Program-made: the position numbers and the translations under genes
Assembly (NCBI GenBank): GCA_036488875.1
Contig: DASXGW010000007.1
Location: 62,001 to 126,000 of the forward strand
Origin: Candidatus Baltobacteraceae bacterium
Lineage (GTDB): Bacteria > Vulcanimicrobiota > Vulcanimicrobiia > Vulcanimicrobiales > Vulcanimicrobiaceae
Direction: 5' to 3'
Length of the DNA: 64,000 nucleotides
Notes under the pieces: generated by a model
What the model saw: the letters and a program-made list of their open reading frames with translations, nothing else
Databases searched by the model: none
Told to the model about the DNA's origin: nothing
Shown here: positions 1-23,102 of the stretch, piece by piece
Layout: each line of letters begins with the position of its first letter
Position numbering within the stretch: position 1 is the stretch's first letter

Positions 1-48
1 CAACGACGCCGAAGAGGGCAGTCACTTACACTTGCACGACGACGAAGA

Positions 49-82
49 CTAGGTTCCGACGAAGGGCTAGGTTCCGACGAAG
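49..82. repeat. 18-bp tandem duplication at a stop codon
   Basis: A 16-base block at 49-64 is repeated exactly at 67-82, giving a period of 18 bases. Read on the minus strand each copy encodes Phe-Val-Gly-Thr followed by TAG, in the same frame as the lipoprotein gene that ends at 67. The second copy lies just past the first stop, so it looks like a short slippage duplication of the gene end. Confidence 0.8.
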
Positions 83-465
83 ACTGTGCCGCCCTGCCAG
101 AGGTAAAACGGCGCGCAGACCGATGAGGATTGGCTCGTCGAAAGCAGCGCCACCCAACAGTAGGTCTTTTTGGGGTTCAGATCTTTGAACGTGGCGTTGC
201 CCTTGTGGTTGGTCGTCTGCGTCGCAAAGGGCTTGCCCGGACGCGGACTCGCGCTCGATTTCGGCGTCGAAATTTCTACCGCAACCTTGGGCGCGGGCGA
301 GCCGAGAATCGTCACGTTGACGGTGGCGGTGTGATCCTTGGGATTCGGCGTGATACTCGGCACCGGTGTAGGCGTCGCCGGCGGGTTGCCCCCGTTGCCG
401 CCGCACGCGGCGAAGGTCAAAGCCAGCGCGATGGCGGCCAAAAGAATGGAAGCGCGTTTGGGCAT
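67..465 (-). CDS. small secreted lipoprotein
   Basis: The 132-residue product starts with a short basic end, a hydrophobic stretch and a lipobox (FAAC, Cys at about 21), so it should be exported and lipid-anchored. A Pro/Thr-rich linker follows (about 28-42). The rest looks like one small beta-sandwich of the carboxypeptidase-regulatory or Ig-like type, with alternating hydrophobic strands and two Cys late in the domain that could pair. I recognise no enzyme motif. It lies 21 bases downstream of the paaX-like gene on the same strand and may be cotranscribed with it, but nothing links the functions. Function unknown. Confidence 0.7.
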   Translation of the reverse strand: MPKRASILLAAIALALTFAACGGNGGNPPATPTPVPSITPNPKDHTATVNVTILGSPAPKVAVEISTPKSSASPRPGKPFATQTTNHKGNATFKDLNPKKTYCWVALLSTSQSSSVCAPFYLWQGGTVFVGT

Positions 466-486
466 GGCGGGGTCGGTTCGACGCCC

Positions 487-1320
487 CTACTCCAAGTACC
501 GCTGCGACAAGTAGCGCAGCGATTTCATTTTCAGCAACTCGTAATATTCGCGGAAAATCGCCGCGGCTGCCGTGCCGGGCCAGTGCGCCGGCACGAGCTC
601 GGACGGTAGACCCGGATCGAGATAGGTGAACCTCCGGTAGTCGTGCACGAGCCACAGACGCTCGACGAAGGCAGCGTCGTCGCTCAAACCGCGCGCGTCA
701 CGTTCCCGCTCCAGCCGGGGGGCGTAGCGATCGACGAACTCGCGATACGCGCGAGCGATCGTCTCGAGGTCCCAGCAGCGCGCGACGAGCTCGCGGTCGC
801 CGAGCGGCCCGCGGTATTCGCCAAGAAACAGATGAACGTCGGCGCCTGCGCCGGCCGATTCGGCTGCCGATCGGGCGGCAGCGAGCGAATCGCCCGGCGA
901 AATCCAGATCGACGCGGACAGCGGTGCCCATCCTAGAACGGCAAGCTCTTTGCGCAGGCGGTCGCGGCGTTCGCGGCGCGCTTCCTCTACTGTATAGGTC
1001 AGTATTCGCCAGCGGCCGTCCCACTCGATGACGGGTCCGTAGATCCGCGGGTTGAGCTCTTCGATCCGCCGGCGGCCGCGTTCGGTCACTGCATAAAAGG
1101 CCCGATTTCCCCGGCGCTCGGCGACCAGCCAACCTTGGCGCGCCATTCGCGAGACGGCCTGACGCACGGCTGCTTCGGAAACGCCGAAGGAGCCCATGAG
1201 CCGGATCAGATCGCCGAGTGCTAGGGAATGGTCGCCCCCTCCGCGCTCGACGACGTCCCCGAAAAGCGTGAAGATAAAGGAATTCGGGCGAGTGACAGGC
1301 CGCTTGACTTCGAGAGCCAT
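487..1320 (-). CDS. paaX: PaaX family transcriptional repressor
   Basis: A 277-residue regulator of the PaaX family, which represses phenylacetate-type catabolic genes and releases DNA on binding an aryl-CoA. The N-terminal half is the winged helix (about 15-85, with the segment FGVSEAAVRQAVSRMARQGW). The C-terminal half is the PaaX C domain, with the conserved aromatic run near WDLETIARAYREFVDRY. I chose ATG at 1320 over an upstream start at 1356 because a GAGGG box lies just before 1320 and the protein then begins at the usual family position. It is divergent from the boxB-like gene at 1386 and shares its control region, the normal arrangement for a repressor of its neighbour. Its own promoter lies inside the inverted repeat, so autorepression is likely. 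Confidence 0.88.
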   Translation of the reverse strand: MALEVKRPVTRPNSFIFTLFGDVVERGGGDHSLALGDLIRLMGSFGVSEAAVRQAVSRMARQGWLVAERRGNRAFYAVTERGRRRIEELNPRIYGPVIEWDGRWRILTYTVEEARRERRDRLRKELAVLGWAPLSASIWISPGDSLAAARSAAESAGAGADVHLFLGEYRGPLGDRELVARCWDLETIARAYREFVDRYAPRLERERDARGLSDDAAFVERLWLVHDYRRFTYLDPGLPSELVPAHWPGTAAAAIFREYYELLKMKSLRYLSQRYLE

Positions 1321-1327
1321 CCCCTCT

Positions 1328-1356
1328 AATATGACACTATTCCCACGAATCGTCAA
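1328..1356 (-). promoter_or_regulatory. probable paaX promoter
   Basis: On the minus strand, TTGACG (1356-1351) and CATATT (1333-1328) are 17 bases apart, a good match to sigma-70 spacing with five of six and four of six consensus bases. The -10 element lies 7 bases upstream of the chosen ATG at 1320, so the leader would be very short or absent. Alternatively the start at 1356 is used and this is coincidence. Confidence 0.45.
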
Positions 1357-1369
1357 AAATCTGTCATAT
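1329..1369. promoter_or_regulatory. inverted repeat, candidate PaaX operator
   Basis: ATATGACA at 1329-1336 and TGTCATAT at 1362-1369 form a perfect 8-bp inverted repeat with centres about 33 bp (three helical turns) apart. The repeat sits in the divergent region between the repressor and the boxB-like gene and overlaps the predicted repressor promoter. A dimeric repressor binding both arms on one DNA face would control both directions. That the protein is PaaX is inference from position. Confidence 0.6.
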
Positions 1370-1385
1370 CGCTAGGGAGACACCC

Positions 1386-2507
1386 ATGGCCCGCATTTCC
1401 ACTTTCGACGACTGGATCGACATGCTCAAGGAGTGGCAGCACGATATCGGGCTCGACCGCGACCTGATCGAGCGCTTCATGCCCGGCTACGAGTTCGAAG
1501 CCAAATACGGCGACCTGCCGATCTCTGAGATCTACTTCGGCGACTTCAAGGGCGATCGTCGCTGGGAGAAAGTACGCGAGATACCGGATCAGCGCATGCG
1601 CGACGCGGTGCTCAACATGGTCGTTTTTCAGGGCGACACCGAGTTCGCCTCGAACGAGCAGCAGCGCTTTTTGGTCAACAACGCGCCGAGCGAATACGAT
1701 CTCGCGTCGCTCGTTCGCATCATGGTGGAAGAGACGCGTCACGGCTATCAGATGTGCCATCTGCTGGTGAATCATTTCGGAAGCGAAGGCAAGATCGAAG
1801 CGCAGAAGATGCTCGAGCGCCGCGCGTTCGGCAAGAAGAACCGGCTGCTCAACGCATTCAACGACGACGTCACGCACTGGCTCGATTTTTTTGCCTACAC
1901 GAACTTCATGGATCGCGACGGAAAGTTCCAGCTGACGATGCTCCAGCATTCGAGCTTCGCGCCGCTGGCACAGTCGATGGGCCCGATGCTCAAGGAAGAG
2001 TCGTTTCACATGGGTACCGGCATCACGGGTTTGCGCCGTATCGCCAAGGCCGCAGTCATTCCGGTCGACCTGCAGCAGAAGTACTACAACAAATGGATCT
2101 CCGGATCGCTCGACCTGTTCGGCACCGATCACTCCGGATCGGCGCAGTGGGCGTATACGTGGGGCATCAAGGGACGCGTCGACGAGGACAAGACCGGCGA
2201 CACCGTCGACAAGGAGCACCTCAACGAGCGGGCTCGCAGACAGTTCTACGAGGAGGTCAGCGGCACGGTCGCGCGTGTGAACGAGGTCAATCCGAGCGAG
2301 ACGAAGCTCTACGTTCCCGACATGAAGTTCAACCGTAAGATCGGCGACTACGCCGGCGAGCGGTACGCGGTCGATGGCCGCAAGCTCACCGAGGACGAGT
2401 GGAACGCGTACGCGCCCAGCGTGCTGCCGACGCCGGCCGACGACGACGTCCTCAAAGCGTTTTTCAAGAACCCCAACTGGATCGCATCGAAAGGGAATCT
2501 CAACTAA
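1386..2507 (+). CDS. boxB: BoxB/PaaA-type diiron aryl-CoA epoxidase
   Basis: A 373-residue ferritin-like diiron oxygenase that most resembles BoxB, the benzoyl-CoA 2,3-epoxidase oxygenase subunit. Aligned with BoxB from memory, the iron ligands are all present: E86 (in QGDTE), E116 and H119 (in VEETRH), D176 (in MDRDGK), and E205 and H208 (in KEESFH). The E86-E116 spacing of 30 equals that in BoxB. It is about 100 residues shorter than classical BoxB (about 475), lacking part of the N terminus and loops, so the true substrate may be another aryl-CoA. An AGGGAG ribosome site lies six bases before the ATG. The enoyl-CoA hydratase gene follows after one base. No reductase partner (BoxA or PaaE type) is in the window. 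Confidence 0.8.
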   Translation: MARISTFDDWIDMLKEWQHDIGLDRDLIERFMPGYEFEAKYGDLPISEIYFGDFKGDRRWEKVREIPDQRMRDAVLNMVVFQGDTEFASNEQQRFLVNNAPSEYDLASLVRIMVEETRHGYQMCHLLVNHFGSEGKIEAQKMLERRAFGKKNRLLNAFNDDVTHWLDFFAYTNFMDRDGKFQLTMLQHSSFAPLAQSMGPMLKEESFHMGTGITGLRRIAKAAVIPVDLQQKYYNKWISGSLDLFGTDHSGSAQWAYTWGIKGRVDEDKTGDTVDKEHLNERARRQFYEEVSGTVARVNEVNPSETKLYVPDMKFNRKIGDYAGERYAVDGRKLTEDEWNAYAPSVLPTPADDDVLKAFFKNPNWIASKGNLN

Positions 2508-2508
2508 C

Positions 2509-3363
2509 ATGAGCTCAGCAGTGAACGGCGCAACGCAGACCCCGTTCGGACGCGAGGCGCGTTCGTTCGACGGCAAGCGCGTCATCAACTATTCGAAGGA
2601 CGGTCACGTCGCCATCATCGAGATGGACGATCCGCCGGCCAACACGTACACGCACGAGATGATGCGTCAGCTCGACGACGCGATTCTCGACGCTCGCTTC
2701 GACGGCGACGTCGAGGTGATTTTACTCGCGGGCAAAGGCGAGAAATTCTTCTCGGCCGGAGCGAACATCGGCATGCTCAACTCCGTCACGCCCGAGTTCA
2801 AGTATATGTTCTGCCTTCACGCCAACGAGACGCTGTTGCGCTTGGAGCAGACGCCGAAGCTCGTCATCGCCGCGCTCAACGGACATACCGTCGGCGGCGG
2901 TCTCGAGATCGCAATGGCGGCCGACATCCGCATCGCGCGTCAGGATGCGGGCAAAATCGGTCTGCCGGAGGTCGCGCTCGGCGTACTTCCCGGAACCGGC
3001 GGCACACAGCGCCTCGCGCGGTTGGTCGGCAAGTCGCGCTCGATCGAGCTCATGGTGACCGGCAAGACCGTAAGCTTCGAGCAGGCCTTGGATTGGGGCA
3101 TCATCAACGACATCTACGAAGGCAGCGCGCAAGAGTTCCGCGAGCAAATGCTGGACTACGCCAGGCAGTTCTGCACGCCCAATAAGGCGCCGATGGCGGT
3201 CGGACACATCAAGCGCAGCGTGCAAACCGGTGCCGAGCTTCCGTTGCAGGATGCGCTCGCGCTCGAGCGCGAGCTGCAATCATTGCTCTTCAAGAGCGAA
3301 GACGCTAAAGAAGGCATCGCGGCGTACAACGAAAAGCGCGTCGCCAAGTTCAAAAACAAATAA
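2509..3363 (+). CDS. enoyl-CoA hydratase/isomerase (crotonase family)
   Basis: A 284-residue crotonase-fold enzyme. The oxyanion-hole and active-site segments are intact: GHTVGGGLEIAMAADIR carries the first catalytic Glu, and GLPEVALGVLPGTGGTQRL carries the second, so true syn-hydratase activity is expected rather than a one-Glu variant. The start at 2509 lies one base after the boxB-like stop, so the two are translationally coupled. In this setting it probably hydrates the ring-opened or dehydro-acyl-CoA product of the epoxidase branch (PaaF or BoxC-like role), although general beta-oxidation is also possible. An in-frame extension into the upstream gene is not needed. Confidence 0.87.
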   Translation: MSSAVNGATQTPFGREARSFDGKRVINYSKDGHVAIIEMDDPPANTYTHEMMRQLDDAILDARFDGDVEVILLAGKGEKFFSAGANIGMLNSVTPEFKYMFCLHANETLLRLEQTPKLVIAALNGHTVGGGLEIAMAADIRIARQDAGKIGLPEVALGVLPGTGGTQRLARLVGKSRSIELMVTGKTVSFEQALDWGIINDIYEGSAQEFREQMLDYARQFCTPNKAPMAVGHIKRSVQTGAELPLQDALALERELQSLLFKSEDAKEGIAAYNEKRVAKFKNK

Positions 3364-4101
3364 TTGACCTGGTTCGACCGGGCGCCGACGTGGCTCGCTT
3401 TCATCGTCATGATTGCCGTCGCAAACGCCGTGGCGTTGTCGGCGATGTACGTCGCGCGCCGCTGGTCGCACCGGATGGGCGTGACCAGCGGTCCTCCGGT
3501 CGTCAGTGCCTGGGCGACGTGCGCCGGCGGACTCACCGCGCTGCTCTTTGCTTTTACGATCGTGACGGTCTGGAATAGCGCGGCGCGCGCGAAATCCGAC
3601 GTTGACGACGAAGCCGCGGCGATTCGGCTCGTCGCGCGCGACATCGCTCCCGCGCAACGGGTGCTGCTGCGCGAGTACGTCAACGAAACGATCGCCGAGT
3701 GGCCGGCGTTGTGCGGCGGCGAGCAAGATCCGAAGGTCGACGCGACCTTGGTCGCGTTGCAGCAAGCCGCCAAGCCGCGCTCACCGTCGTACGCCGACGA
3801 CCTGTATCGCCAGCTCGGCACGATGGAAGACCTGCGCAACCGCCGTTGGCAGACGTCCACCTCGTCGATCCCCGACGAAATCTGGGTCGCGCTCCTGGTG
3901 CTGTCGTGCTCCGTGCTGATCGTACTGAGTTTGGCGTTAACCGAGCGGCCCGAACCCCAGACCGTGCTGACGGCCGCCGTTGCGACCGCACTCGGCACGC
4001 TCTTCTGGGTTGCCGGCGTCCTCGAGTATCCATTCTGCGGGCGTACCGGCATAGGCCCAGGAGAACTTCTCGACATCGTCCGGGCCCATTTGTTGTCATG
4101 A
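3364..4101 (+). CDS. DUF4239-like membrane protein
   Basis: A 245-residue integral membrane protein beginning with TTG directly after the hydratase stop. There are two N-terminal membrane helices (about 8-30 and 50-70), a soluble helical middle part of about 100 residues, and two more helices near 170-190 and 200-220. The pattern of a hydrophobic helix followed by DVDDEAAAIRLVARD resembles the DUF4239 (bestrophin-like) family. Function is unknown; a channel role is only an analogy. It overlaps the next gene by ATGA. Confidence 0.6.
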   Translation: MTWFDRAPTWLAFIVMIAVANAVALSAMYVARRWSHRMGVTSGPPVVSAWATCAGGLTALLFAFTIVTVWNSAARAKSDVDDEAAAIRLVARDIAPAQRVLLREYVNETIAEWPALCGGEQDPKVDATLVALQQAAKPRSPSYADDLYRQLGTMEDLRNRRWQTSTSSIPDEIWVALLVLSCSVLIVLSLALTERPEPQTVLTAAVATALGTLFWVAGVLEYPFCGRTGIGPGELLDIVRAHLLS

Positions 4102-4334
4102 GCCGAATCCAAACGCTGCTCGCTCTGGCAGCCGTCATTTCCGCCAGCATCGCGGCCTTGCAAGTGCCCGGCCGATTGATTTTTGCGGCAATCGCCGTTG
4201 CGCTGCTGATCGCGGTCGCCGGTGCGCGTCTGCGAGCGGCGCTGGTCGAGAAACGCGAGCCGCCAAGCGGCTTCGACGCCGCCGAACGCGCGCGGCAAAT
4301 TCGCGAGGACCGGCGACGGCGCTTGGGCGGATAA
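4098..4334 (+). CDS. small two-helix membrane protein
   Basis: A 78-residue protein with two predicted membrane helices (about 5-22 and 27-46) and a strongly basic, Arg-rich tail ending in REDRRRRLGG. The ATG overlaps the stop of the preceding membrane protein as ATGA, which is good evidence that it is translated with it. I recognise no family. The tail would lie in the cytoplasm by the positive-inside rule. Confidence 0.6.
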   Translation: MSRIQTLLALAAVISASIAALQVPGRLIFAAIAVALLIAVAGARLRAALVEKREPPSGFDAAERARQIREDRRRRLGG

Positions 4335-4343
4335 CGAAGCGTC

Positions 4344-4679
4344 TTACCCCGAGACGTACTGCATCACGACGACTTCGCCGGCGCGCGGTTGGTATGCCCT
4401 CGTCACGTTGAAGATTCTCGCCAGTCCGCATAGATCGACGACGCGCTTGATCGTACTTTCGCCCGGCGGTACGACGATCGTTTCGCGGGAGAACCCTTGA
4501 CGCCGGCGCTCTTTGCGCAAGGCCAGCAGCTCGCCGATACACGACGAATCGAAATACTCGGCTGCCGAAAGATCGAAAACGACGTTTGGTTCTGACTCAA
4601 TACGCCGGAACTCGCGCCTCAATGCGTCCTTACAGGCGACGTCATATTCGCCCGTAAAGACCACTACCAAAGTGGACAT
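4344..4679 (-). CDS. STAS domain protein (anti-sigma antagonist type)
   Basis: A single STAS domain of 111 residues. The phosphorylatable serine region is recognisable as YFDSSCIGELLALRK (about 42-56), matching the DSSGLG-type loop of SpoIIAA/RsbV proteins. Such proteins bind and release a kinase/anti-sigma factor depending on the serine phosphate. No kinase or sigma factor is adjacent; the nearest possible partner in the window is the SpoIIE-type phosphatase at 21744. It is convergent with the membrane gene pair, with a nine-base gap. Confidence 0.8.
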   Translation of the reverse strand: MSTLVVVFTGEYDVACKDALRREFRRIESEPNVVFDLSAAEYFDSSCIGELLALRKERRRQGFSRETIVVPPGESTIKRVVDLCGLARIFNVTRAYQPRAGEVVVMQYVSG

Positions 4680-4720
4680 AGAAAACTCCGCGTGGGTGAA
4701 AAGTACCTAAGCGCCCGTTC

Positions 4721-4750
4721 ATAATAGCCGGTAGGGAAGCGGGGCGTCCA
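4721..4750 (-). promoter_or_regulatory. possible promoter of the STAS gene
   Basis: On the minus strand TGGACG (4750-4745) and TATTAT (4726-4721) are 18 bases apart, about 42 bases upstream of the start at 4679. The -10 element is good and the -35 is weak. Confidence 0.3.
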
Positions 4751-4804
4751 TTATCGTGCGCTCGCTCACCCGCAGGGCGGCCTACAGTGTGATCGGCGAG
4801 TCCG

Positions 4805-5218
4805 ATGGCGGGTGTCGTACGGGAGGATCCCCAATCCTTCACGGCAGTGGAAGGCTTTAAGCAGGGCCGGCTGCTGCGAATCTTCATCGACGAGAACGAC
4901 CGGCACGGGGTCCAGCCGGCGTACACGGCAATCGTCGAGTTCCTGCGCGCCAAAAACGTGGCAGGCGCAACGGTATTTCGCGCAATCGAGGGGTACGGCA
5001 GCCATCAGCAGATCCATATCGCGAAAGTCTTTTCGTGGATTCCGAACCTCCCGATCCTCATCGAGGTCGTCGATGACGCGGAGAAGATCGATGCCATTCT
5101 GCCCGAGCTCGAAGCGCTGATCGGCGAAGGCCTCGTGACGCTCGAAGCCGCCGAATACTTACGGCTCGGGAAGCACCGGCCTCAGGACGACCCCTCGCGT
5201 TCGAGCATTTCGCGGTAG
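4805..5218 (+). CDS. DUF190 (PII-like) protein
   Basis: A 137-residue protein of the DUF190 family, small trimeric PII-like proteins. The core reads LLRIFIDENDRHGVQPAYTA, then VAGATVFRAIEGYGSH, then the strand LPILIEVVD; these are the family landmarks. Members often sit beside fluoride channels or other transporters, but none is next to it here. The last 37 bases overlap the 3' end of the DNA ligase gene on the other strand (5182-5218), so the short C-terminal tail after RLGKH is probably not part of the fold. Confidence 0.85.
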   Translation: MAGVVREDPQSFTAVEGFKQGRLLRIFIDENDRHGVQPAYTAIVEFLRAKNVAGATVFRAIEGYGSHQQIHIAKVFSWIPNLPILIEVVDDAEKIDAILPELEALIGEGLVTLEAAEYLRLGKHRPQDDPSRSSISR

Positions 5219-6837
5219 ACTTCCCGTACCGTTTCCAGCGTATCGATCTCTTGGGGCGGTTTGTCGTCGCGGATGCGTACGATGCGAGGAAAGCGCAGCG
5301 CAAAACCGCTTTCGTGTAAATCGCTCTTCTGAACGACGTCGAAGGCGACTTCGAGCACGATCTGCGGTTCGACGGGAATTTCGTAGGCACGCGCTTTTTC
5401 GCGTTGCCGGCCGTCGGGGAGCCGATGCGCCAGGAACCACTCGGTCAGTTCGGCGATCTCTGCGTCCGTGAGTCCCGAATAGGCCTTGCCGATGGCGACC
5501 AGCGTGCCGTCGTCGCCGCGCACGGCAAACGTGTAATCGGAAAGCACGTTCGATCGCTTGCCATGGCCCCACTCCACTGCAACGATGACCACGTCGAGCG
5601 TCGTCAGCTCGCGCTTGAGCTTGAGCCACCACTTGCCGCGCCGTCCCGGCGCGTAGGGCGAGTCGGCGCGCTTGAGCATGAGCCCTTCGTTGCCGCGCTT
5701 GCGTGCCGCTTCGAAACGCTCGTTGACGTCGATCGCGGCGATTTCTGCGGCCGGATCGAACGGGGCGATCGACAGCGTCTCGTTCGGCACGACCGCGCCC
5801 GCGAGCAGCTCGCGCCGCCGCACCAGGGGCTCGTCGACGAGAAGCACCTCGTCGAGTGCCAGCAGGTCGAAGATAACGTATACCACCGGCACGTCGGTCT
5901 GCATTCGCATTTGCAGCTCGCGAAACGGCAGCACGCGGCCGTCGCGCATTCCGACGATCTCGCCGTCCAGAATGACGTCGTTCTCGATGGCACGCAGCGC
6001 CGACGCAACCTTCGGATACGACGCCGTCACGTCGTTGAGCCGCCGCGAAAAGAGGCGCACCGTACCGTCGCGCACGTGCGCTTGCGCGCGGATGCCGTCG
6101 TACTTGTCTTCCAACAGCCACGTTGCGCCGGCGAGCTCCCGGTAGGCGTCGCCGTACGCGATCGGCGACGCGAGCATGAAGCCGATGGGCGTTCCGTAAA
6201 GCACGCGCAGCTGCTCGAGCGTTTGCTGCTTTGCCGAAAGGGCGACCTCGCCGACGTCGCCGCACGCCATCAATCCGCGCCGAACCGCGGCCGTGTCGGC
6301 ATCGAATGCGCGCGCGATCGCGTCGAGTACCAATCCTTCACGTAATCCGATGCGCAGATCGCCGGTGACGATCTTCACGACGTACGTGGCAACGAGCGGA
6401 GCGTCGCAGGCGCGGAGAATTCGCTCCAACACCACCTCGCGACGTTTGCCCGCGTTCTTGCCGCTCGCACCGGCGATCTCGCCGAAGAGCGAGTCCAACG
6501 AGGCGGGCGTCAAACGATCCGTAAAGAGCGTAGCATCGCGCGGCGGGCGGACGAGACGGCCGAGCGCGACGCCTAAATCGCCCGTATCCCTGTACGCCGC
6601 ACCAAGCTGCGCGTCGTCGAACTCCCAGACACGCCGCGCCGCGGCGACGATCGAGCGGCCGCCGACCGAGAGCGTACGGTGGTCGCGCGCGGCGAAAGGA
6701 CTGCCCGTAAAAAAGCGCGCCGCCGCGACCAGATCGGCCGCGTCGAGCTCGCGCAGATATTCGGCAATAAGCGCGATCTTGTCCAGCTTACGCGGACGGG
6801 CGGCGACGGCTTCGGCTACGCGCGCAAAGGCTTCCAC
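5182..6837 (-). CDS. lig: ATP-dependent DNA ligase (archaeal/LigB type)
   Basis: A 551-residue ATP-dependent DNA ligase. Residues about 1-190 are the alpha-helical DNA-binding N domain. The adenylation domain starts with motif I EDKYDGIR, in which K245 would carry AMP, and continues with LDGEIVG (motif III), VIFDLL and EGLMLKR (motif IV). Motif V follows as KWWLKLK. The OB-fold fills the last 130 residues. This three-domain layout is that of archaeal and mycobacterial LigB-type ligases, not of the NHEJ protein LigD. Bacteria have a separate NAD-dependent replicative ligase, so this one is probably for repair. GTG start; the 3' end overlaps the DUF190 gene by 37 bases. Confidence 0.93.
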   Translation of the reverse strand: MEAFARVAEAVAARPRKLDKIALIAEYLRELDAADLVAAARFFTGSPFAARDHRTLSVGGRSIVAAARRVWEFDDAQLGAAYRDTGDLGVALGRLVRPPRDATLFTDRLTPASLDSLFGEIAGASGKNAGKRREVVLERILRACDAPLVATYVVKIVTGDLRIGLREGLVLDAIARAFDADTAAVRRGLMACGDVGEVALSAKQQTLEQLRVLYGTPIGFMLASPIAYGDAYRELAGATWLLEDKYDGIRAQAHVRDGTVRLFSRRLNDVTASYPKVASALRAIENDVILDGEIVGMRDGRVLPFRELQMRMQTDVPVVYVIFDLLALDEVLLVDEPLVRRRELLAGAVVPNETLSIAPFDPAAEIAAIDVNERFEAARKRGNEGLMLKRADSPYAPGRRGKWWLKLKRELTTLDVVIVAVEWGHGKRSNVLSDYTFAVRGDDGTLVAIGKAYSGLTDAEIAELTEWFLAHRLPDGRQREKARAYEIPVEPQIVLEVAFDVVQKSDLHESGFALRFPRIVRIRDDKPPQEIDTLETVREVYREMLEREGSS

Positions 6838-15567: not shown

Positions 15568-16539
15568 ATGAGCCTAGGCGGCGAAGTCGAAGGGACCCGC
15601 GATATGGTCGTCCGGAACTTTCTCTGGGCTGGGCTTGTCGTTATGGCAGTCGTGATCGCGATGGCTTATCGGCGGTCGAAACAGCCGCTCGCGTGGCCCA
15701 AGCCGATCGAAACCGCCATCGGGTTCGTCACGAACTTCTTCGATACGCTCGGTATCGGCTCGTTTGCGCCGACCACATCGCTTTTTAAGTTCTTCAAGCT
15801 CGTGCCCGACGAAAAAATACCGGGTACGCTCAACATCGGCCATACGTTCCCGACCATTGTGGAAGCGTTCGTCTTCATCGCGATCGTCGGCGTCGATCCG
15901 CTGACGCTCATCACGCTGATCGTTTCGGCGATCGCCGGAGCGTGGCTCGGCGCGGGCGTCGTCTCGCGTTGGCCGCGGCGTTACGTTCAAATCGGCATGG
16001 GAACGGCGCTGTTGGTTGCAGCGGCCATTTTTCTCATGCAGGACCTCAACAAGATGCCGGGCGGCGGTGAAGCTGCGGGGCTGACGGGCACGCTGCTGAT
16101 CGCGGGTATCGTCATCAACTTCTGCCTCGGTGCGCTGATGACCATCGGTATCGGCCTGTACGCTCCGGCAATGATCATGGTCTCGCTGTTGGGCATGACG
16201 CCCAAGGCCGCGTTCCCAATCATGATGGGATCCTGCGCGTTCCTCATGCCGATCGCGAGCCTTCGGTTTGCCAAGTTCGAGGCGTTCTCGATGCGCGCGG
16301 CCATCGGACTGGCCATCGGCGGCGTACCGGCGGTACTTTTAGCGGCGTTTATCGTGAAATCGTTACCACTCTATTGGGTGCGCTGGCTGGTCGTCATCGT
16401 GGTCGTCTACGCTTCGGTCGCGATGCTGCGCTCCGCGATCGTGGAGCACAAGGCTCGCGAGGATTACTCAGTAACCCCTAACGACGAACCTCCTGACGAC
16501 GAACCTCCTGACGACGAACCTCCGCAAAGCAACGCCTAA
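15568..16539 (+). CDS. TauE/SafE family permease
   Basis: A 323-residue membrane protein with about eight helices and the two half-repeats of the TauE/SafE (sulfite exporter) family; the half-repeat landmarks are ETAIGFVTNFFDTLGIGSF and IVINFCLGALMTIGIGLY. Such proteins move small anions such as sulfite, sulfonates or organic acids; the substrate here is not readable. A start at 15604 (after a GAAGGGA box) would remove 12 non-hydrophobic residues and is equally possible. The cytoplasmic tail carries three copies of an acidic DEPP repeat. Its stop overlaps that of NagA (CTAA). Confidence 0.8.
   Translation: MSLGGEVEGTRDMVVRNFLWAGLVVMAVVIAMAYRRSKQPLAWPKPIETAIGFVTNFFDTLGIGSFAPTTSLFKFFKLVPDEKIPGTLNIGHTFPTIVEAFVFIAIVGVDPLTLITLIVSAIAGAWLGAGVVSRWPRRYVQIGMGTALLVAAAIFLMQDLNKMPGGGEAAGLTGTLLIAGIVINFCLGALMTIGIGLYAPAMIMVSLLGMTPKAAFPIMMGSCAFLMPIASLRFAKFEAFSMRAAIGLAIGGVPAVLLAAFIVKSLPLYWVRWLVVIVVVYASVAMLRSAIVEHKAREDYSVTPNDEPPDDEPPDDEPPQSNA
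16480..16524 (+). repeat. three 15-bp tandem repeats in a coding tail
   Basis: Three consecutive units of GACGACGAACCTCCT (first unit begins AAC, last ends CCG) encode NDEPP-DDEPP-DDEPP at the C terminus of the TauE-like permease. Near-identical DNA indicates recent slippage. Confidence 0.85.
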
Positions 16540-17669
16540 GCCGCTACTTCGGCGCGATGATACACGAAGCGGCCGCCGACCATCGTGCCGATGATCGAGT
16601 AATCCTTATCCCACAGCGAGAGGTCGGCGCGCATGCCGCGCGCGATGCGTCCCATCTCGCCGTCGTGCTTGATCAGCTTGGCCGGCGCTCCGGTAGCGGC
16701 GACGATCGCCTGCGCGAACGGAATCTGGGCGTAGGACATATAGTTGCGCAGCGCCTCGTCGATCTTGAGCGCGCTGCCGGCGATGGTGCCGTCGGACGCG
16801 CGCATCAAGCCGCCTTCGATGTGATAGCCGGGGTCGGCCGGCGGCATATTGTCGGTCGCGAGCACGATCCGGTCGCCGAGCGTGCGGTGCAAAATGTCGA
16901 TCATGACCGGCGAGACGTGCAGACCGTCACAAATCACTTGCACTAACGTGCGGCGGTCCTGAATGAAAGCCGCCAAAATCGAGGGATCGCGGTGATCGAG
17001 CGGCGGCATACCGTTGAACGCGTGCGTCAGCGAGCGGAATCCCAGGCCGACTGCCAGCATGCCTTCGCGATAGCGCGCGCTCGTGTGTCCGGCCGAGCAG
17101 ACGACGCCGTTTTCCAAGAAAACGCGCATTGCTTCGCCGGCGCCTTCGATCTCCGGCGCCATCGTCACGAGCAGGCACGCGCCCTTGCAGGCGTCGACCA
17201 TCTCTTGCGCGCGCTGCGCGCTCGCGTCGATCAGCCACTCGTTACGGTGGACGCGGCGAAACTTCGGATTGAGAAACGGTCCTTCGAAGTGGATGCCCAA
17301 ACAGCGCGCGCCGACGGGCGTGTCTTCTTCGAGCTGATTGGCCGCCTCGACGATCTCGGACGCGGCGTGGAGCATCGATTCCCAGGGCGCCGTCATGACG
17401 CTCGCCACGAATCCCGTCGCGCCGACGCGCGCGTATTCCGATGCCGCCGCCGTCACGGCATTGCCTTGATCGCGGTTGAACAGAAAATCCGCCGCGCCGT
17501 TGGTATGGACGTCGATCATTCCGGGTGCGATGCTGCTGCCGCCGGGTAGTGGATGGTCGGTCGGGCCGTCGGCCGGAAGGACCGCTGCGATGCGTCCTTC
17601 CTCAACGGCGATGCGCCCATAGGTCGACGTTCCGTCGCCGACCGCAATGAACGCGGGGCCGAGGATCAT
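16536..17669 (-). CDS. nagA: N-acetylglucosamine-6-phosphate deacetylase
   Basis: A 377-residue amidohydrolase that removes acetate from GlcNAc-6-phosphate, a step in amino sugar and cell-wall recycling. Landmarks: PGMIDVHTNG (first metal site), GIHFEGPF (metal Glu), SAGHTS, THAFNGMPPL and LATDNMPP, with the catalytic Asp in the last. I placed the start at ATG 17669 with a GAGGG box before it; the longer open frame to 17987 is a low-complexity antisense of the GTPase gene. It follows the dynamin-like gene by 13 bases. No nagB is nearby. Confidence 0.9.
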   Translation of the reverse strand: MILGPAFIAVGDGTSTYGRIAVEEGRIAAVLPADGPTDHPLPGGSSIAPGMIDVHTNGAADFLFNRDQGNAVTAAASEYARVGATGFVASVMTAPWESMLHAASEIVEAANQLEEDTPVGARCLGIHFEGPFLNPKFRRVHRNEWLIDASAQRAQEMVDACKGACLLVTMAPEIEGAGEAMRVFLENGVVCSAGHTSARYREGMLAVGLGFRSLTHAFNGMPPLDHRDPSILAAFIQDRRTLVQVICDGLHVSPVMIDILHRTLGDRIVLATDNMPPADPGYHIEGGLMRASDGTIAGSALKIDEALRNYMSYAQIPFAQAIVAATGAPAKLIKHDGEMGRIARGMRADLSLWDKDYSIIGTMVGGRFVYHRAEVAA

Positions 17670-17682
17670 ATCGCCCTCTTCG

Positions 17683-20346
17683 TCACCCCCCACTCCGTCG
17701 CCCCTTGCCGAAGAGGCGCGCGAGCAGGCTCGGCTCCTGCGAGCGCGCAGCCGGCTCGGGTGTATCGTGCGTGGGAGCGGGCGCCGCGCCCGCGCGCGCC
17801 CTCGCCAGGCGCTCGAGTCGCGCCATGTGTGCTTCGGCGTGCGATTCCAACGTCGAACGAAGCGCTTCGGTTTCATTCCACGGCGATGCGGCGCGCCGCG
17901 CTTCGCGCGCTGCAACGTAGTCGTTAGCGGAGATCGTAAAGACGCGTTCGGCCGGTATCGCTCGCGCTTTAAGGTACTCGGCCGCAAGCTCGACGACGTG
18001 GCGACGTTCCTTCGGCGATTCGTTGTCGGCGATCGTGTGTGCGAATAGCATCGGTTTTCCGAACGCAGCGACGCGATCGTACAGATCGAGCTCGCGGTCG
18101 GAGAGCTGGCGTGAGAAGAGACAAAGCACTTCGCTCGCGTGACCGGCTACCGCAACGTTCACGTCGTCGGCGTCGGGGTCGCCCGAGTCGAAGGCCGGCG
18201 CGTGTACGAGCACGAGCTGGCGCGGCAGATTCCACGGAACGAGAACCAGGACGGCGGTTTCCGCGGCGGCGGCAGATGCGTCTTCAAACGCAATTTCGCG
18301 CCACGTGCCGTCAGGATCGAGGCAATACGCCTGCTCGCGCTCTCCATAGCGAACGTGGATTGGAAAGCGAACGCTGCCGGCTTGGTCGTCGGTGAGCACG
18401 CGACGATTCGCAAACGCGTTGATGAGACTGCTCTTGCCGCGCCGCAGGCCGCCGAGCACGGCCACGCGCCAGCGTTCGGGCCGAAGGCCGCGATCGTACG
18501 AGGTGAGATCAAACGAGGGCTCGACGTGAGCGGCGCGCACCGTCTGCGAGCCCGGATCGGCGGGGGCGATCTCCGCTTCGCGCGCCATGAACGACCCCAC
18601 GACGCGCTCGGACTGTTCGAGCGCGGAGGCGATGGCGGTGCGACGGGCGCGCAGCTCGGCGTTTACGCGGTCGTGCTGCTGCGCTTCGCGGGCGCGCAGT
18701 GCGCGCTCGATACTGCCCAGGTCGGCGTCGCGTTTTTGGAGCGCGGCCCTGCCGATTGCGGCGGCCAGGTCCTCGTAGACGTGTCCCAGCCGCGCGCCGA
18801 CCGCGCCGGCGAACGCCTCGACTTCCGCCGCTAGCCGCGGAAAAATTTCGCTGCGTAAGTCGGCGGCGAGCTCGCGCTTCATGTAGCCGCCCGGCGGCCG
18901 CGAAGCAAATCGCGCCGCGACGCTTTGCACCAGCGCGATCGCAGGGCCGCCGATTGCTTCGAGCACGATCGTCGCGGCGACGGCATTGGCGACGTCGCCG
19001 CTCCACAAACTCGTGCCGCCCTGCGCGCCGAACGCGTGTGCCGCCGAATCCGGCAGCGACCACCGCAGCGGAAGAAGCTCCCGGGCGCGTGCGAGCGCTT
19101 CGGAAGCGTCGTCGGTTACCGCTGCCGCGGTTCGCTCGGCGAACTCGCCGGCGACGTCCGCGACGACCCGGTCGACGATGAGATGCAGCCGTTCGCGATC
19201 CCGCAGCTTAGCGACGTCCGTAACGTCGAAAACTTGCGCGAGCGCGCGCTCGAGCTCTTCGGCCAGCGCGCGCCCGCGCTCGACGAGCGCTTGGCGTTCG
19301 CGTGCGCCGCAGGACAACAGTTCTTCGCGAAACGAGCGCGCTTGCGCGTCGGCTCGCTGCAGCTGCGGTACGATCGCTTCGCGCCGCCCGGCCAAAGCCG
19401 CTGCGTCGAGGTCCAGCATCGTCAAATCGCGATCGATCGCGTCGGTTTCGTCGCTTGCCGCCGCCGTCGCGGCGTCGCCGGCCCGGCGCAGGCGCGCGCG
19501 TCCCGTACGCTTGATCAGCGAAGCGTCGAGCGCGTGGAGAAACCTGGGAAAGCGGCTGCGTTCGACGACGGCCTCGTCGGATGCCAGCGTTCCGTCGACG
19601 TAATCGCGTGCGGACAGCGCGTAGACGTAGGTGCCGGGAGCGTGCAGCGCCGCCAGGCGCGCGATGCGCTCGGACGCGTGCTCCCAAGCCGCGCCTCCGT
19701 CGGATTGCGCCTGCCTCCACAAATCGATCTTCGTCTGCACGATGAAGATCGTGTCGATATGCTGGCGGATGATGCCCAGAAACGAGGCGTCCCCTTCGCT
19801 AAACGGCTGCTGCGTGTCGATGAGATAGAGCACGGCGTCGGCCCCGGGCAAGAACTGCAAGGTCGCGCGGCGGTGCGCGGGGTTGATCGATGCCAGCCCC
19901 GGCGTATCGGCGACCACGAATCCGCGCTGGAGAAACGGCGATGCCGCTCTGACGAGCACGCGAACCGGCGCGTCGGTTTCGTTGGTCGTCACGAACTTGC
20001 CGAGCGAATCGATCGGAACGCGCTCGCTGCGGCCGTCTTCGTAAAACGCCGTCGCTTCGTCGGCGCCGCCGTACTCGAGCTCGGTAATCGTTGCGGTCGA
20101 CGGGTTGATGTCGGTCGCGAGGAGGCCGAACTTTCCAAGCAGCGCGTTGAGGAGAAACGATTTGCCGCTCGAGAACTCGCCGACGACGGCGAGAACGAAT
20201 TTTCCGCGCGCGAGTCGCGTACGGGCCGCCTGCAGCGAGGCCTTACGATCCTCGGAGAGGAGACCCTCTAATTCGAGCAAACGCGCGACGAGTTCGTCGC
20301 GCGTTTGCTCGTAACGCTGCATCGCATCTTCGTCAACTCTAGTCAC
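17683..20346 (-). CDS. tandem (two-headed) dynamin-like GTPase
   Basis: An 887-residue bacterial dynamin-like protein with two GTPase heads in one chain. Head 1 is complete: P-loop GEFSSGKS (56-63), DTPG (147-150) and TKID (205-208), followed by a long helical stalk (about 300-600) with a hydrophobic patch near 450-480 that could be the membrane paddle. Head 2 has a P-loop GGLRRGKS (632-639), but the switch II motif reads HAPAF instead of DxxG and the specificity motif TIAD instead of TKxD. So head 2 probably binds nucleotide poorly or not at all. Bacillus DynA has the same two-head plan. Likely role: membrane fusion or protection. GTG start, overlapping the phosphomutase end by eight bases. 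Confidence 0.87.
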   Translation of the reverse strand: MTRVDEDAMQRYEQTRDELVARLLELEGLLSEDRKASLQAARTRLARGKFVLAVVGEFSSGKSFLLNALLGKFGLLATDINPSTATITELEYGGADEATAFYEDGRSERVPIDSLGKFVTTNETDAPVRVLVRAASPFLQRGFVVADTPGLASINPAHRRATLQFLPGADAVLYLIDTQQPFSEGDASFLGIIRQHIDTIFIVQTKIDLWRQAQSDGGAAWEHASERIARLAALHAPGTYVYALSARDYVDGTLASDEAVVERSRFPRFLHALDASLIKRTGRARLRRAGDAATAAASDETDAIDRDLTMLDLDAAALAGRREAIVPQLQRADAQARSFREELLSCGARERQALVERGRALAEELERALAQVFDVTDVAKLRDRERLHLIVDRVVADVAGEFAERTAAAVTDDASEALARARELLPLRWSLPDSAAHAFGAQGGTSLWSGDVANAVAATIVLEAIGGPAIALVQSVAARFASRPPGGYMKRELAADLRSEIFPRLAAEVEAFAGAVGARLGHVYEDLAAAIGRAALQKRDADLGSIERALRAREAQQHDRVNAELRARRTAIASALEQSERVVGSFMAREAEIAPADPGSQTVRAAHVEPSFDLTSYDRGLRPERWRVAVLGGLRRGKSSLINAFANRRVLTDDQAGSVRFPIHVRYGEREQAYCLDPDGTWREIAFEDASAAAAETAVLVLVPWNLPRQLVLVHAPAFDSGDPDADDVNVAVAGHASEVLCLFSRQLSDRELDLYDRVAAFGKPMLFAHTIADNESPKERRHVVELAAEYLKARAIPAERVFTISANDYVAAREARRAASPWNETEALRSTLESHAEAHMARLERLARARAGAAPAPTHDTPEPAARSQEPSLLARLFGKGRRSGG

Positions 20347-21703
20347 GGATTAGGGCGAGTACTTCGTCGCGGTGTTTCTCCATGAGCGGTTTCGTATCGC
20401 CTTCGACGTTGAGGCGCAACAGCGGCTCGGTGTTCGACGGACGAATGTTCATCCACCAGTCGGGGTACCCGACGGTGATGCCGTCGAGGTGATCGATCTG
20501 CGCGTCCTTGTAGCGCTCCTCGATCTCGTGCAGCTTCGACGGGATGTCGCGAACCTTGCTATTGATCTCCCCCGACCGGAACCGGGTGTCGATCGGCGCG
20601 ATCACTTCGCTGACCGGCTTGTTCGCTTCGCTGAACAGCTCGAGGCACTGAAGCATCGCGATCATTCCCGAGTCGGCGTACCAATTGTCGCGGAAATAGA
20701 AATGGCCGCTGTGCTCGCCGCCAAAAATGATATCTTGCTCGCGCATGATCGCTTTGATGATCGAATGACCGACTTTCGAGCGGATAGGCTTTCCGCCGGC
20801 TCCTGCGATGAGCTCGGGAACGCTGCGGCTGCAGATGAGATTGTAGAGAATCTTTGCGCCGGGATGCTTCTTGAGGGTGTTGAGCGCCACGAGCGCGGTG
20901 ACGGTGCTGCCGTCGACCAGTTCCCCTTTCTCGTCGACGAGGAACATACGATCGGCGTCGCCGTCGAACGCCACGCCCAGATCGCAGCCGTGCCGCTTGA
21001 CGGCGGCTTGCAGGTCGACCATGTTCTCGGGTTCGATCGGACTGGCCGGATGGTTCGGAAAGCTTCCGTCGAGTTCGAAATAGAGTGGAATTACTTCGCA
21101 CGGCAGGCGCTTGAACACGTACGGAACCGTTTCGCCCGCCATGCCGTTGCCCGCGTCGATAGCGATCTTGAGCGGCTTGATTTTCGCGCGATCCACGAAC
21201 GACAGGCAGTGCTCCGCGAAATCTTCCAAAATGTTGCGGTGCGAGATCGTTCCGGGAGTCGCGGCTTTGGGCGGAAGGTTTCCGTCCACGAGCCGATCGC
21301 GAATTTCGGAAAGCCCGCTTTCGAGCGAAATCGCTTGCGCTTGCGAACGCGTGAACTTCATGCCGTTGTATTGCGCGGGATTGTGGGATGCCGTGATCAT
21401 GACGCCGCCGGCGAACGCGTGCTTTCCGACGGCGAAGTAGAGCGCGTCGGTCGATACCATGCCGATGTCGACGACGTCGGCCCCGGCTTCGGTCGCTCCG
21501 CGCGCAAACGCTTCGAACAAATTCTCACCGCTGGGACGCATGTCGCGTCCCACCGCGATCGTGGGCTTCGACGCGTTGGATGCGTTTACGAGCGGGACGA
21601 AACAGCGGCCGATACCGTACGCGACGTCGTCGTCGAATTCGGCCGGATAAATCCCGCGAACGTCGTAGGACTTGAAGATACCCGGGTCTACGTGCGCCTG
21701 CAT
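20339..21703 (-). CDS. manB: phosphomannomutase/phosphoglucomutase
   Basis: A 454-residue alpha-D-phosphohexomutase of the AlgC/ManB group. The phosphoserine loop is TASHNP, the metal loop DGDADR, the sugar-binding loop GGEHSGH and the phosphate-binding loop RPSNTEPLLRL; all four domains are present. It interconverts mannose-6-P/mannose-1-P and probably the glucose analogues, feeding nucleotide sugars for envelope polymers. ATG 21703 gives the usual N terminus just before FKSYDVRG. It is divergent from the phosphatase at 21744. Confidence 0.92.
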   Translation of the reverse strand: MQAHVDPGIFKSYDVRGIYPAEFDDDVAYGIGRCFVPLVNASNASKPTIAVGRDMRPSGENLFEAFARGATEAGADVVDIGMVSTDALYFAVGKHAFAGGVMITASHNPAQYNGMKFTRSQAQAISLESGLSEIRDRLVDGNLPPKAATPGTISHRNILEDFAEHCLSFVDRAKIKPLKIAIDAGNGMAGETVPYVFKRLPCEVIPLYFELDGSFPNHPASPIEPENMVDLQAAVKRHGCDLGVAFDGDADRMFLVDEKGELVDGSTVTALVALNTLKKHPGAKILYNLICSRSVPELIAGAGGKPIRSKVGHSIIKAIMREQDIIFGGEHSGHFYFRDNWYADSGMIAMLQCLELFSEANKPVSEVIAPIDTRFRSGEINSKVRDIPSKLHEIEERYKDAQIDHLDGITVGYPDWWMNIRPSNTEPLLRLNVEGDTKPLMEKHRDEVLALIRD

Positions 21704-21743
21704 AGCACGAGCCTGTTCGGAGGACCGTATCGTAAGACCTAGC

Positions 21744-23102
21744 GTGCCGCTAGCTCGCGTCACGGGTACGCTGCTGCTGACGGCGTTTCTGCTGCTCGCG
21801 CTGGCCTTCGCGGTCTTGGGCGCTTTTCAAACGCGCGAGTCTATGGTGCGAACCTTCGCGCGCCAGTCACAAATGCAGGCCGGCCAAACCGAGCTGGAAG
21901 AGATGCTGCGGCTGCAAGTCGACGAGGAGAATTCGCTGCGCGGCTACTCGCTCACGCACGATCCGTTCTACGTCGATCAATACACAGCCGCAGCCGGTGA
22001 GTTCGATAGCCGCGAAAGCCACCTACGGCAGACGTTTTCGTCGCAGGGTTTGATCACCGCGCAGCGTCTGGTCGATCAATACGCTCGGCTTCAGAAGCGG
22101 TGGCGCGACGCCGTCGCCAAACCCGTGCTCGCAAATCCCACCCGGCAACTCGCGGAGATCGACAAGCGCAATAAGTTTTTCAGCGATCAGGAAGCCGGCG
22201 TAGTACGCACGATTCGCGCCGAGCTGGCCGCCCAGAACGACGTTCTGGGACGCAGCACGCAAACCGAGCTGGACCGCAGCTCGTACGTTCGCGCCTTCTG
22301 GCTGCTGCTTTTTGGCCTGCTCGCCATTCTTTTTAACGCGTTTCGCTCGCGGCTCTATCGCGAACTGGAAGAAGAGCGCACGACGACCGAGATTCTCCAG
22401 CGCGCGTTTCGCAGCGAGACGCTTCCGATTCCGCATTGCGAGGTCGGCGGGGCGTACGTTTCGGCCAGCAGCCATTTGGCGGTCGGCGGCGACGTGTACG
22501 ACGTCTATCGCTTATCGAGCAATCTCGCGCTTCTCCTGATTGCCGACGTCAGCGGTAAGGGCATCGACGCCGCGGTGCTGACCGCGTTCATCAAGTTTAC
22601 GATTCGCGCGATCGCCCTTCGCCGCCGCGATCCGGCCGCGATCCTGAGCGAGTTCAACACGTCGTTTTCGCAGGCGGTCGAGAACCCGTATCTGTTCGTC
22701 TCGATGTGGCTCGGGATACTCGATACCGAAACGTTCGTGCTGCGTTACGCCAGCGCCGGGCACGATTCGGCGTTTATTCGTCGTTCCGGTAACGTGCAGC
22801 AGCTTGCGGTCACCGGTCCGATCCTCGGCGTCATGGAGGAGCCGTTCGAGTCGCGCCAGACCAACTTGGAACACGGCGATCTGCTCGTGCTGGCGACCGA
22901 CGGCTTGACCGAAGCGCGCACGCGCTCGGGCCAGCAGCTGCTCGACGCCGGCGCGATGGAGCTCATCGCAAAAGGAAGCGAGCACGCGCAAGAGCTGGCC
23001 GACGGGCTGATCGCAAGCGTCCGAGCGCTTAGTCGCAACCGGCTGCGCGACGATCTCGCGATCTTGGTCGTGCGTGCGCTGCGGGGAGAGCCCGATGCGT
23101 AA
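21744..23102 (+). CDS. CHASE3-SpoIIE membrane phosphatase
   Basis: A 452-residue PP2C-type serine phosphatase (RsbU/SpoIIE class). The N-terminal helix (about 5-27) and a second helix (about 180-200) frame an outward four-helix CHASE3-like sensor with the signature EENSLRGYSLTHDP. After a short coiled coil the SpoIIE domain has the metal motifs GGDVYDVY, ADVSGKG and ATDGLTEA and the last Asp in RLRDDLAIL. Its usual targets are phosphorylated STAS proteins, so the orphan STAS protein at 4344 is a possible but unproven partner. I used GTG 21744, which begins the protein right before the first membrane helix. Confidence 0.85.
   Translation: MPLARVTGTLLLTAFLLLALAFAVLGAFQTRESMVRTFARQSQMQAGQTELEEMLRLQVDEENSLRGYSLTHDPFYVDQYTAAAGEFDSRESHLRQTFSSQGLITAQRLVDQYARLQKRWRDAVAKPVLANPTRQLAEIDKRNKFFSDQEAGVVRTIRAELAAQNDVLGRSTQTELDRSSYVRAFWLLLFGLLAILFNAFRSRLYRELEEERTTTEILQRAFRSETLPIPHCEVGGAYVSASSHLAVGGDVYDVYRLSSNLALLLIADVSGKGIDAAVLTAFIKFTIRAIALRRRDPAAILSEFNTSFSQAVENPYLFVSMWLGILDTETFVLRYASAGHDSAFIRRSGNVQQLAVTGPILGVMEEPFESRQTNLEHGDLLVLATDGLTEARTRSGQQLLDAGAMELIAKGSEHAQELADGLIASVRALSRNRLRDDLAILVVRALRGEPDA

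Follow-up and report, generated by a model that had tools for sequence, protein, structure and literature searches.

Can a bacterial dynamin carry two G domains in one chain and leave hydrolysis to one of them, and what would the other then be for? The question is raised by a gene in the window, by which we mean the whole stretch of 64,000 nucleotides analysed here. A first-pass annotation had described the product as a two-headed dynamin with all the GTPase motifs in head 1 and the P-loop alone in head 2, and had set it beside DynA, as though it were a DynA with one dead unit. The position, strand and motif letters given there are correct:

17683 to 20346, minus strand: gene for the tandem-head dynamin (887 residues, GTG start), with orthologues in 53 of 99 family genomes

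A search with the protein returned a match of any kind in 63 of the 99 genomes of the family (Vulcanimicrobiaceae) and in 70 of 149 genomes of the phylum. Genomes were counted as having an orthologue if their best match reached at least 204 bits, the top match among the remaining genomes being 89 bits. By this measure orthologues occur in 53 of the 99 family genomes, spread over 27 of 38 genera, while the search of 149 phylum genomes with the full protein revealed no orthologue beyond the family. With so many genomes carrying an orthologue, an assembly or one-off error is excluded. Relatives on viral contigs were not found, and none of 15 plasmid records with dynamin matches reaches 80 percent query coverage. 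Within the window's own genome two other frames pass the Pfam Dynamin cut-off, one resembling MnmE by its sequence and one a Der-type double GTPase; no other dynamin was found there above the cut-off. For comparison within the family we assembled 44 rows, namely the window protein and 43 further frames, after removing hits that scored below 500 bits, copies of the window, and sequences identical to one another. Our main alignment contains 40 of these 44 rows, L025, L053, L058 and L059 being omitted as cut or frame-broken.

The N-terminal two-thirds of the chain presents the familiar parts of a dynamin:

19477 to 20211, minus strand: head 1 G domain, residues 46-290 (Pfam Dynamin_N, E 3.9e-19)
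20158 to 20181, minus strand: head 1 G1 P-loop GEFSSGKS, residues 56-63 (main alignment)
19897 to 19908, minus strand: head 1 G3 DTPG, residues 147-150 (main alignment)
19723 to 19734, minus strand: head 1 G4 TKID, residues 205-208 (main alignment)
18547 to 19476, minus strand: single stalk of long helices, residues 291-600 (DSSP of a low-confidence model; LeoA and LeoBC profiles)
18895 to 18993, minus strand: hydrophobic helix-GGP-helix hairpin, paddle-like, residues 452-484 (top hydropathy peak of the protein)

Head 1 scores 69.7 bits against Dynamin_N, for which the cut-off is 27, and it also has the G2 Thr. Every motif position of this head that we tabulated is canonical and invariant in 40 of 40 rows, so the full motif set ascribed to it earlier stands. 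The profiles of two one-headed dynamins run through head 1 and the helices that follow: LeoA matches residues 141-583 (profile positions 103-502 of 559) and LeoBC residues 30-578 (59-593 of 601), and residues 1-590 therefore look like a whole single-stalk dynamin. Judged from these boundaries, head 2, which starts near residue 621, comes without a separate stalk. The hairpin is a constant feature, with a Kyte-Doolittle peak of 1.3-2.15 in all 40 orthologues. The Pfam helical domain PF21808 scores 22.2 bits, below its cut-off of 28.3, and the helices are otherwise taken from a low-confidence model. Structure models were built for the full chain and for head 2 from four sequences (the window's and L039-L041), and both are of low confidence. 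The full-chain model (pLDDT 57.1, pTM 0.42) finds its best matches in BDLP1 and IniA; neither it nor the head 2 model is confident enough to place the heads relative to each other. IniA, BDLP1 and LeoA share the architecture of residues 1 to about 590 and give the best sequence and fold matches, but they are one-headed, whereas the present protein adds a second G domain and a tail past the stalk.

That second G domain comprises the following features:

17842 to 18486, minus strand: head 2, a degenerate dynamin-type G domain, residues 621-835 (Dynamin_N, and a Foldseek/VIA match to IniA)
18430 to 18453, minus strand: head 2 P-loop GGLRRGKS, residues 632-639 (K638 invariant in the alignments)
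18370 to 18372, minus strand: position of the G2 Thr in head 2, here V659 (hydrophobic in 40 of 40)
18181 to 18204, minus strand: replacement of G3 in head 2, HAPAFDSG, residues 715-722 (H715, P717, F719, D720 and G722 invariant)
18025 to 18036, minus strand: G4 variant of head 2, TIAD, residues 771-774 (T771 and D774 invariant)

Taken alone, head 2 passes the Dynamin_N cut-off with 29 bits against 27, so that both heads (69.7 and 29 bits) lie above the curated threshold for a dynamin-type G domain, as expected of a member of the dynamin superfamily. The head 2 model (pLDDT 54.5, pTM 0.52) has IniA as its top match (Foldseek E 3.1e-11; VIA Z 15.1, rmsd 3.4 over 192 residues), and, for this same low-confidence model, the Campylobacter pair Cj-DLP, BDLP1 and the mitofusins also lead the Foldseek and VIA lists. 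A G-domain fold is thus indicated by consistent matches of a low-confidence model.

Conservation in the main alignment separates what head 2 has kept from what it has lost. In the P-loop, G632, G637 and K638 are present in 40 of 40 rows, and residue 639 is Ser or Thr in all of them. The G2 position holds A in 17, V in 10, M in 6, I in 5 and L in 2. At G3 the Asp is replaced by His throughout (40/40) and the Gly by Ala (38) or Pro (2), with F719, D720 and G722 following unchanged in all 40. At G4, where the Asp confers guanine specificity, Thr771 and Asp774 are invariant in 40 of 40, and the Lys gives way to I (23), M (14), L (2) or F (1); the flanking H770 and E776 are likewise invariant. The larger set of 44 rows agrees: G3 reads H-x-P-x in all 44, and G4 reads T-[IMLF]-[AG]-D in 43, the exception (L053) being frame-broken at that point. 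This motif pattern is uniform across the family, and chance is therefore excluded. We also looked for G3 or G4 at a shifted position. Aligned with hhalign, head 2 and head 1 are in register over the domain (probability 95.8 percent in the local and 97.5 percent in the global mode), and no head 2 motif is therefore concealed elsewhere. The one candidate, D720-S-G722, reads D-x-G rather than D-x-x-G.

Whether the missing Lys at G4 counts as a loss can be judged from other dynamins. The Bacillus velezensis DynA (WP_032873299.1, 1192 aa) has D-T-P-G in both heads and reads NQID and NAAD at G4, with no Lys in either; these positions rest on a MAFFT alignment, because hhalign of head 2 covers only the region past G3 with a single DynA D2 sequence and puts the G4 region out of register with DynA D1. 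Since this DynA does without the Lys in both heads, its absence from head 2 is weak evidence of loss. More broadly, we compared 26 other dynamin heads, 22 belonging to the phylum and the other 4 to Bacillus or Lysinibacillus. Of the 25 heads whose G4 could be aligned, 6 have no Lys there, and 2 more have the Lys but no Asp. D-x-P-G at G3, however, is retained in 26 of 26, and the loss of G3 is therefore special to head 2 of the present family, which alone among the heads compared lacks it. By sequence, then, the real losses of head 2 are G2 and G3, and its G4 is better read as a variant. The first-pass statement that head 2 keeps only the P-loop is accordingly right for G2 and G3, which are gone in 40 of 40, and wrong for G4, where none of the 40 rows has lost the Thr or the Asp; TIAD is no sign of lost function.

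Given that G2 and G3 are what it has lost, head 2 has the look of a pseudoGTPase that holds a nucleotide without hydrolysing it: the conserved loss of catalytic motifs expected of such a domain is found in every one of the 40 rows. That head 2 is instead a pure protein-interaction scaffold, free of nucleotide and keeping its P-loop for the fold alone as in those p190RhoGAP domains that are nucleotide-free, we regard as unlikely, if not strikingly so. The loss of G2 and G3 would suit it, and nucleotide-free pseudoGTPase domains exist (PMC10211241), but the P-loop Lys and the G4 Thr and Asp, which would hold the phosphate and the base, are invariant in 40 of 40. The opposite reading, an active though divergent NTPase working through other residues such as H715 and D720, seems to us decidedly unlikely. 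It draws on the invariance of H715, P717, F719, D720, G722, H770 and E776 in all 40 rows, and the unchanging His and Asp of the G3 segment could point to a different chemistry rather than none. Against it, the residues that bind Mg and detect the gamma-phosphate, the Thr of G2 together with the Asp and Gly of G3, are gone, and we know of no dynamin that works without them.

A third reading, that of a DynA-type fusion with one unit decaying under relaxed selection, is contradicted by the present data and has, in our estimate, next to no chance of being right. It would account for the two heads per chain and for a long stem branch, of 3.8 changes per site, leading to head 2 in a tree of heads. 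This tree contains 10 of the 40 orthologues and all but one of the 26 other heads, L085:65-2350 being omitted; its long branches, against which the tree program cautions, make the stem length a rough figure. Within the clade, the branches of head 2 are about the size of those of head 1. The consensus residue has a mean frequency of 0.80 in head 1, 0.74 in head 2 and 0.71 in the hairpin region, as against 0.51-0.54 in the other helical parts, and fully conserved positions number 52 in head 2 versus 84 in head 1. Mean pairwise divergence is 0.27 for head 1, 0.35 for head 2 and 0.57 for the stalk, the fastest evolving part, and the slope of head 2 divergence on that of head 1 is 1.24. Head 2 is hence nearly as slow as head 1 within the family, and identical substitutions are fixed in 40 of 40, both of which speak against decay. 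We interpret the history of head 2 as a single early burst of change that gave way to constraint, and on this comparison of sequences its motif loss is not decay. The earlier claim of a second head without catalytic motifs is thereby upheld for G2 and G3, with strong constraint added to it. As to origin, head 2 might have arisen by duplication within the gene or been acquired by fusion with a different dynamin, its very long stem being compatible with both.

Nor does the architecture agree with DynA. Both heads share one stalk, and the protein is for that reason not DynA-like; a second stalk is absent, and the chain has 887 residues against 1192. The premise of a DynA with one dead unit hence falls away, head 2 having no stalk to form a unit with. 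The protein scores 85.5 bits against the NCBIfam DynA equivalog NF052648, whose cut-off is 1600, and the two whole units with G1-G3 intact in each that define the DynA type are not found in it. Membership of that type was rejected on the NF052648 score, the single stalk and the missing G2 and G3 of the second head. The two proteins do have in common two dynamin G domains per chain and a G4 without Lys, but Bacillus DynA consists of two complete units with D-T-P-G in both heads, whereas the present protein has one stalk, a head 2 without G2 and G3, and an anchor-like motif at the C-terminus.

This last feature follows head 2 after a helix and a variable Ala/Pro-rich linker:

17686 to 17730, minus strand: basic, MinD-anchor-like motif SLLARLFGKGRRSGG, residues 873-887 (motif in 34 of 40 orthologues)

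In 34 of the 40 rows the motif, for instance FLRRLFGG or FFARIFGKGR, lies within the last 30 residues, and 6 are without its strict form. The expectation from shuffling is 0.036, a figure that is no probability because the rows are related. MinD of E. coli K-12 ends in GFLKRLFGG, and several orthologues end in FLRRLFGG. The likeness to the MinD membrane-targeting sequence concerns the short C-terminal motif alone, the remainder being unrelated. The hydrophobic moment of the motif falls anywhere from percentile 0.16 to 0.99 within the protein, and MinD itself is low by the same measure. The resemblance suggests that the motif probably anchors the protein in the membrane. The MinD helix is described as binding membranes weakly and as needing at least two copies (PMC6803595). 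On contig C8 of the window's genome, positions 125168-126787 hold two adjoining MinD-type genes (L110 and L111) with different C-terminal tails.

Taken together, the anatomy is well supported, and the role that we infer from it is the most likely one. The explanation as a whole, a single-stalk dynamin with a pseudoGTPase head 2 as silent partner and a membrane-anchored arm, we hold to stand at about an even chance. Residues 1 to about 590 would be a complete dynamin, to which a stalkless second G domain, a flexible linker and the MinD-like motif were added. Head 2 would keep a guanine nucleotide bound, as a permanent cofactor or as a sensor, and would not hydrolyse it. In dynamins of the IniA/BDLP type the termini lie close together (PMC6715688), and because a stalk of this type returns the C-terminus to the head, the expected position of head 2 is next to head 1. 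There it may act as the silent G-domain partner of head 1, in cis or in trans. GTP-driven pairing of head 1 would then cluster at least two of the weak C-terminal anchors, switching on a second membrane site, and a chain gripping the membrane at both the hairpin and the head 2 tail could tether or remodel the inner membrane. Most bacterial dynamins are reported to be encoded as pairs (PMC6104087, PMC4159319), and the simplest reading of the present chain is that it contains its own partner, which has given up the catalytic residues and kept the nucleotide grip. The built-in asymmetric dimer proposed in the first-pass annotation, in which head 2 would regulate or tether, is compatible with this anatomy. 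To the more specific proposal, that a pseudoGTPase head with a held nucleotide is an obligatory internal partner and, together with the MinD-like anchor, couples pairing to membrane grip, we give somewhat less than an even chance.

Parts of this arrangement have counterparts elsewhere. Campylobacter Cj-DLP1 and Cj-DLP2 likewise show heterotypic coupling of two dynamins, for which a tethering model has been proposed, but they are two genes with two stalks, activated together (PMC6104087). The pseudoGTPases p190RhoGAP, CENP-M and Rnd similarly employ a G fold as a binding module once hydrolysis has been lost (PMC10211241), but are eukaryotic and not dynamins. The tandem IRG protein Irgb2-b1 also has two GTPase units with divided roles in one chain, but these are two full units, and the setting is mouse immunity (PMC6420625). 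A description of a single-stalk two-headed protein was not found in the literature searched, most subscription journals lying outside the reach of the search. Bacterial dynamins as a rule work in pairs. With a canonical and a motif-less head on a single stalk, binding, pairing and hydrolysis would be separable by point mutation in one protein, and the arrangement could show why membrane-shaping dynamins need two heads. In B. subtilis DynA, GTP is bound by both heads and hydrolysis requires both to be loaded (PMC8844932); the present protein, if correctly understood, would be an asymmetric dynamin in which one hydrolysing head is enough, against that rule. The protein also hints that a dynamin can bear an anchor of the MinD kind, and it links a dynamin with a sugar-phosphate enzyme operon, in a phylum that has received little study.

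The enzymes in question flank the dynamin gene on both sides:

20339 to 21763, minus strand: phosphomannomutase/phosphoglucomutase (PMM/PGM)-type gene, upstream (8-base overlap with the dynamin start)
16536 to 17669, minus strand: NagA-type gene (N-acetylglucosamine-6-phosphate deacetylase), downstream (13 bases past the dynamin stop)

NagA adjoins the dynamin in 45 of 46 orthologue loci, the exception (L060) ending at a contig end, and PMM does so in 43 of 46, where L025 and L061 begin at a contig end and L052 has other sequence. This constancy could be taken to mean that the operon sets the function, which would then lie in the supply of envelope polysaccharide or amino sugars, for example as a switch of the enzymes, rather than in membrane remodelling. 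We think this very unlikely, as the dynamin anatomy and the hairpin point to the membrane, and as PMM and NagA also occur together without the dynamin. When genomes lacking an orthologue were searched with both enzymes, the two genes were found adjacent in 19 of 23, which means that they do not need the dynamin; the gap between them is 14-199 bases in 18 genomes and 863 bases, with another small frame, in one. In the remaining 4 of the 23 no PMM was found above the threshold. Five empty sites compared directly held no dynamin remnant. On a NagA tree of 62 rows, covering 42 of the 45 dynamin loci (3 with NagA matches below 250 residues were dropped) and 20 loci without dynamin, the pattern of presence and absence needs at least 9 changes, 5 of them forced by well-supported branches. 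Over 39 rows, the distances of head 1 and those of NagA show a correlation of 0.88. We would read this as a dynamin anciently present and repeatedly lost in a clean manner, although the change count alone fits gain as well as loss.

In the family the pairing of the PMM/PGM-type gene with NagA is conserved, whether or not the dynamin lies between them. At one locus (L062, genome G052) the gap between them carries, instead of the dynamin, a frame of about 170 aa that is Dps/ferritin-like by eye. Among the other dynamins collected, positions 1708-6694 of L072 (genome G096) contain three overlapping single-headed dynamin frames in tandem, two of which read NKLN and NKIN at G4 and so lack the usual Asp, and a Lysinibacillus plasmid (L088, positions 1-5632) carries three consecutive dynamin genes.
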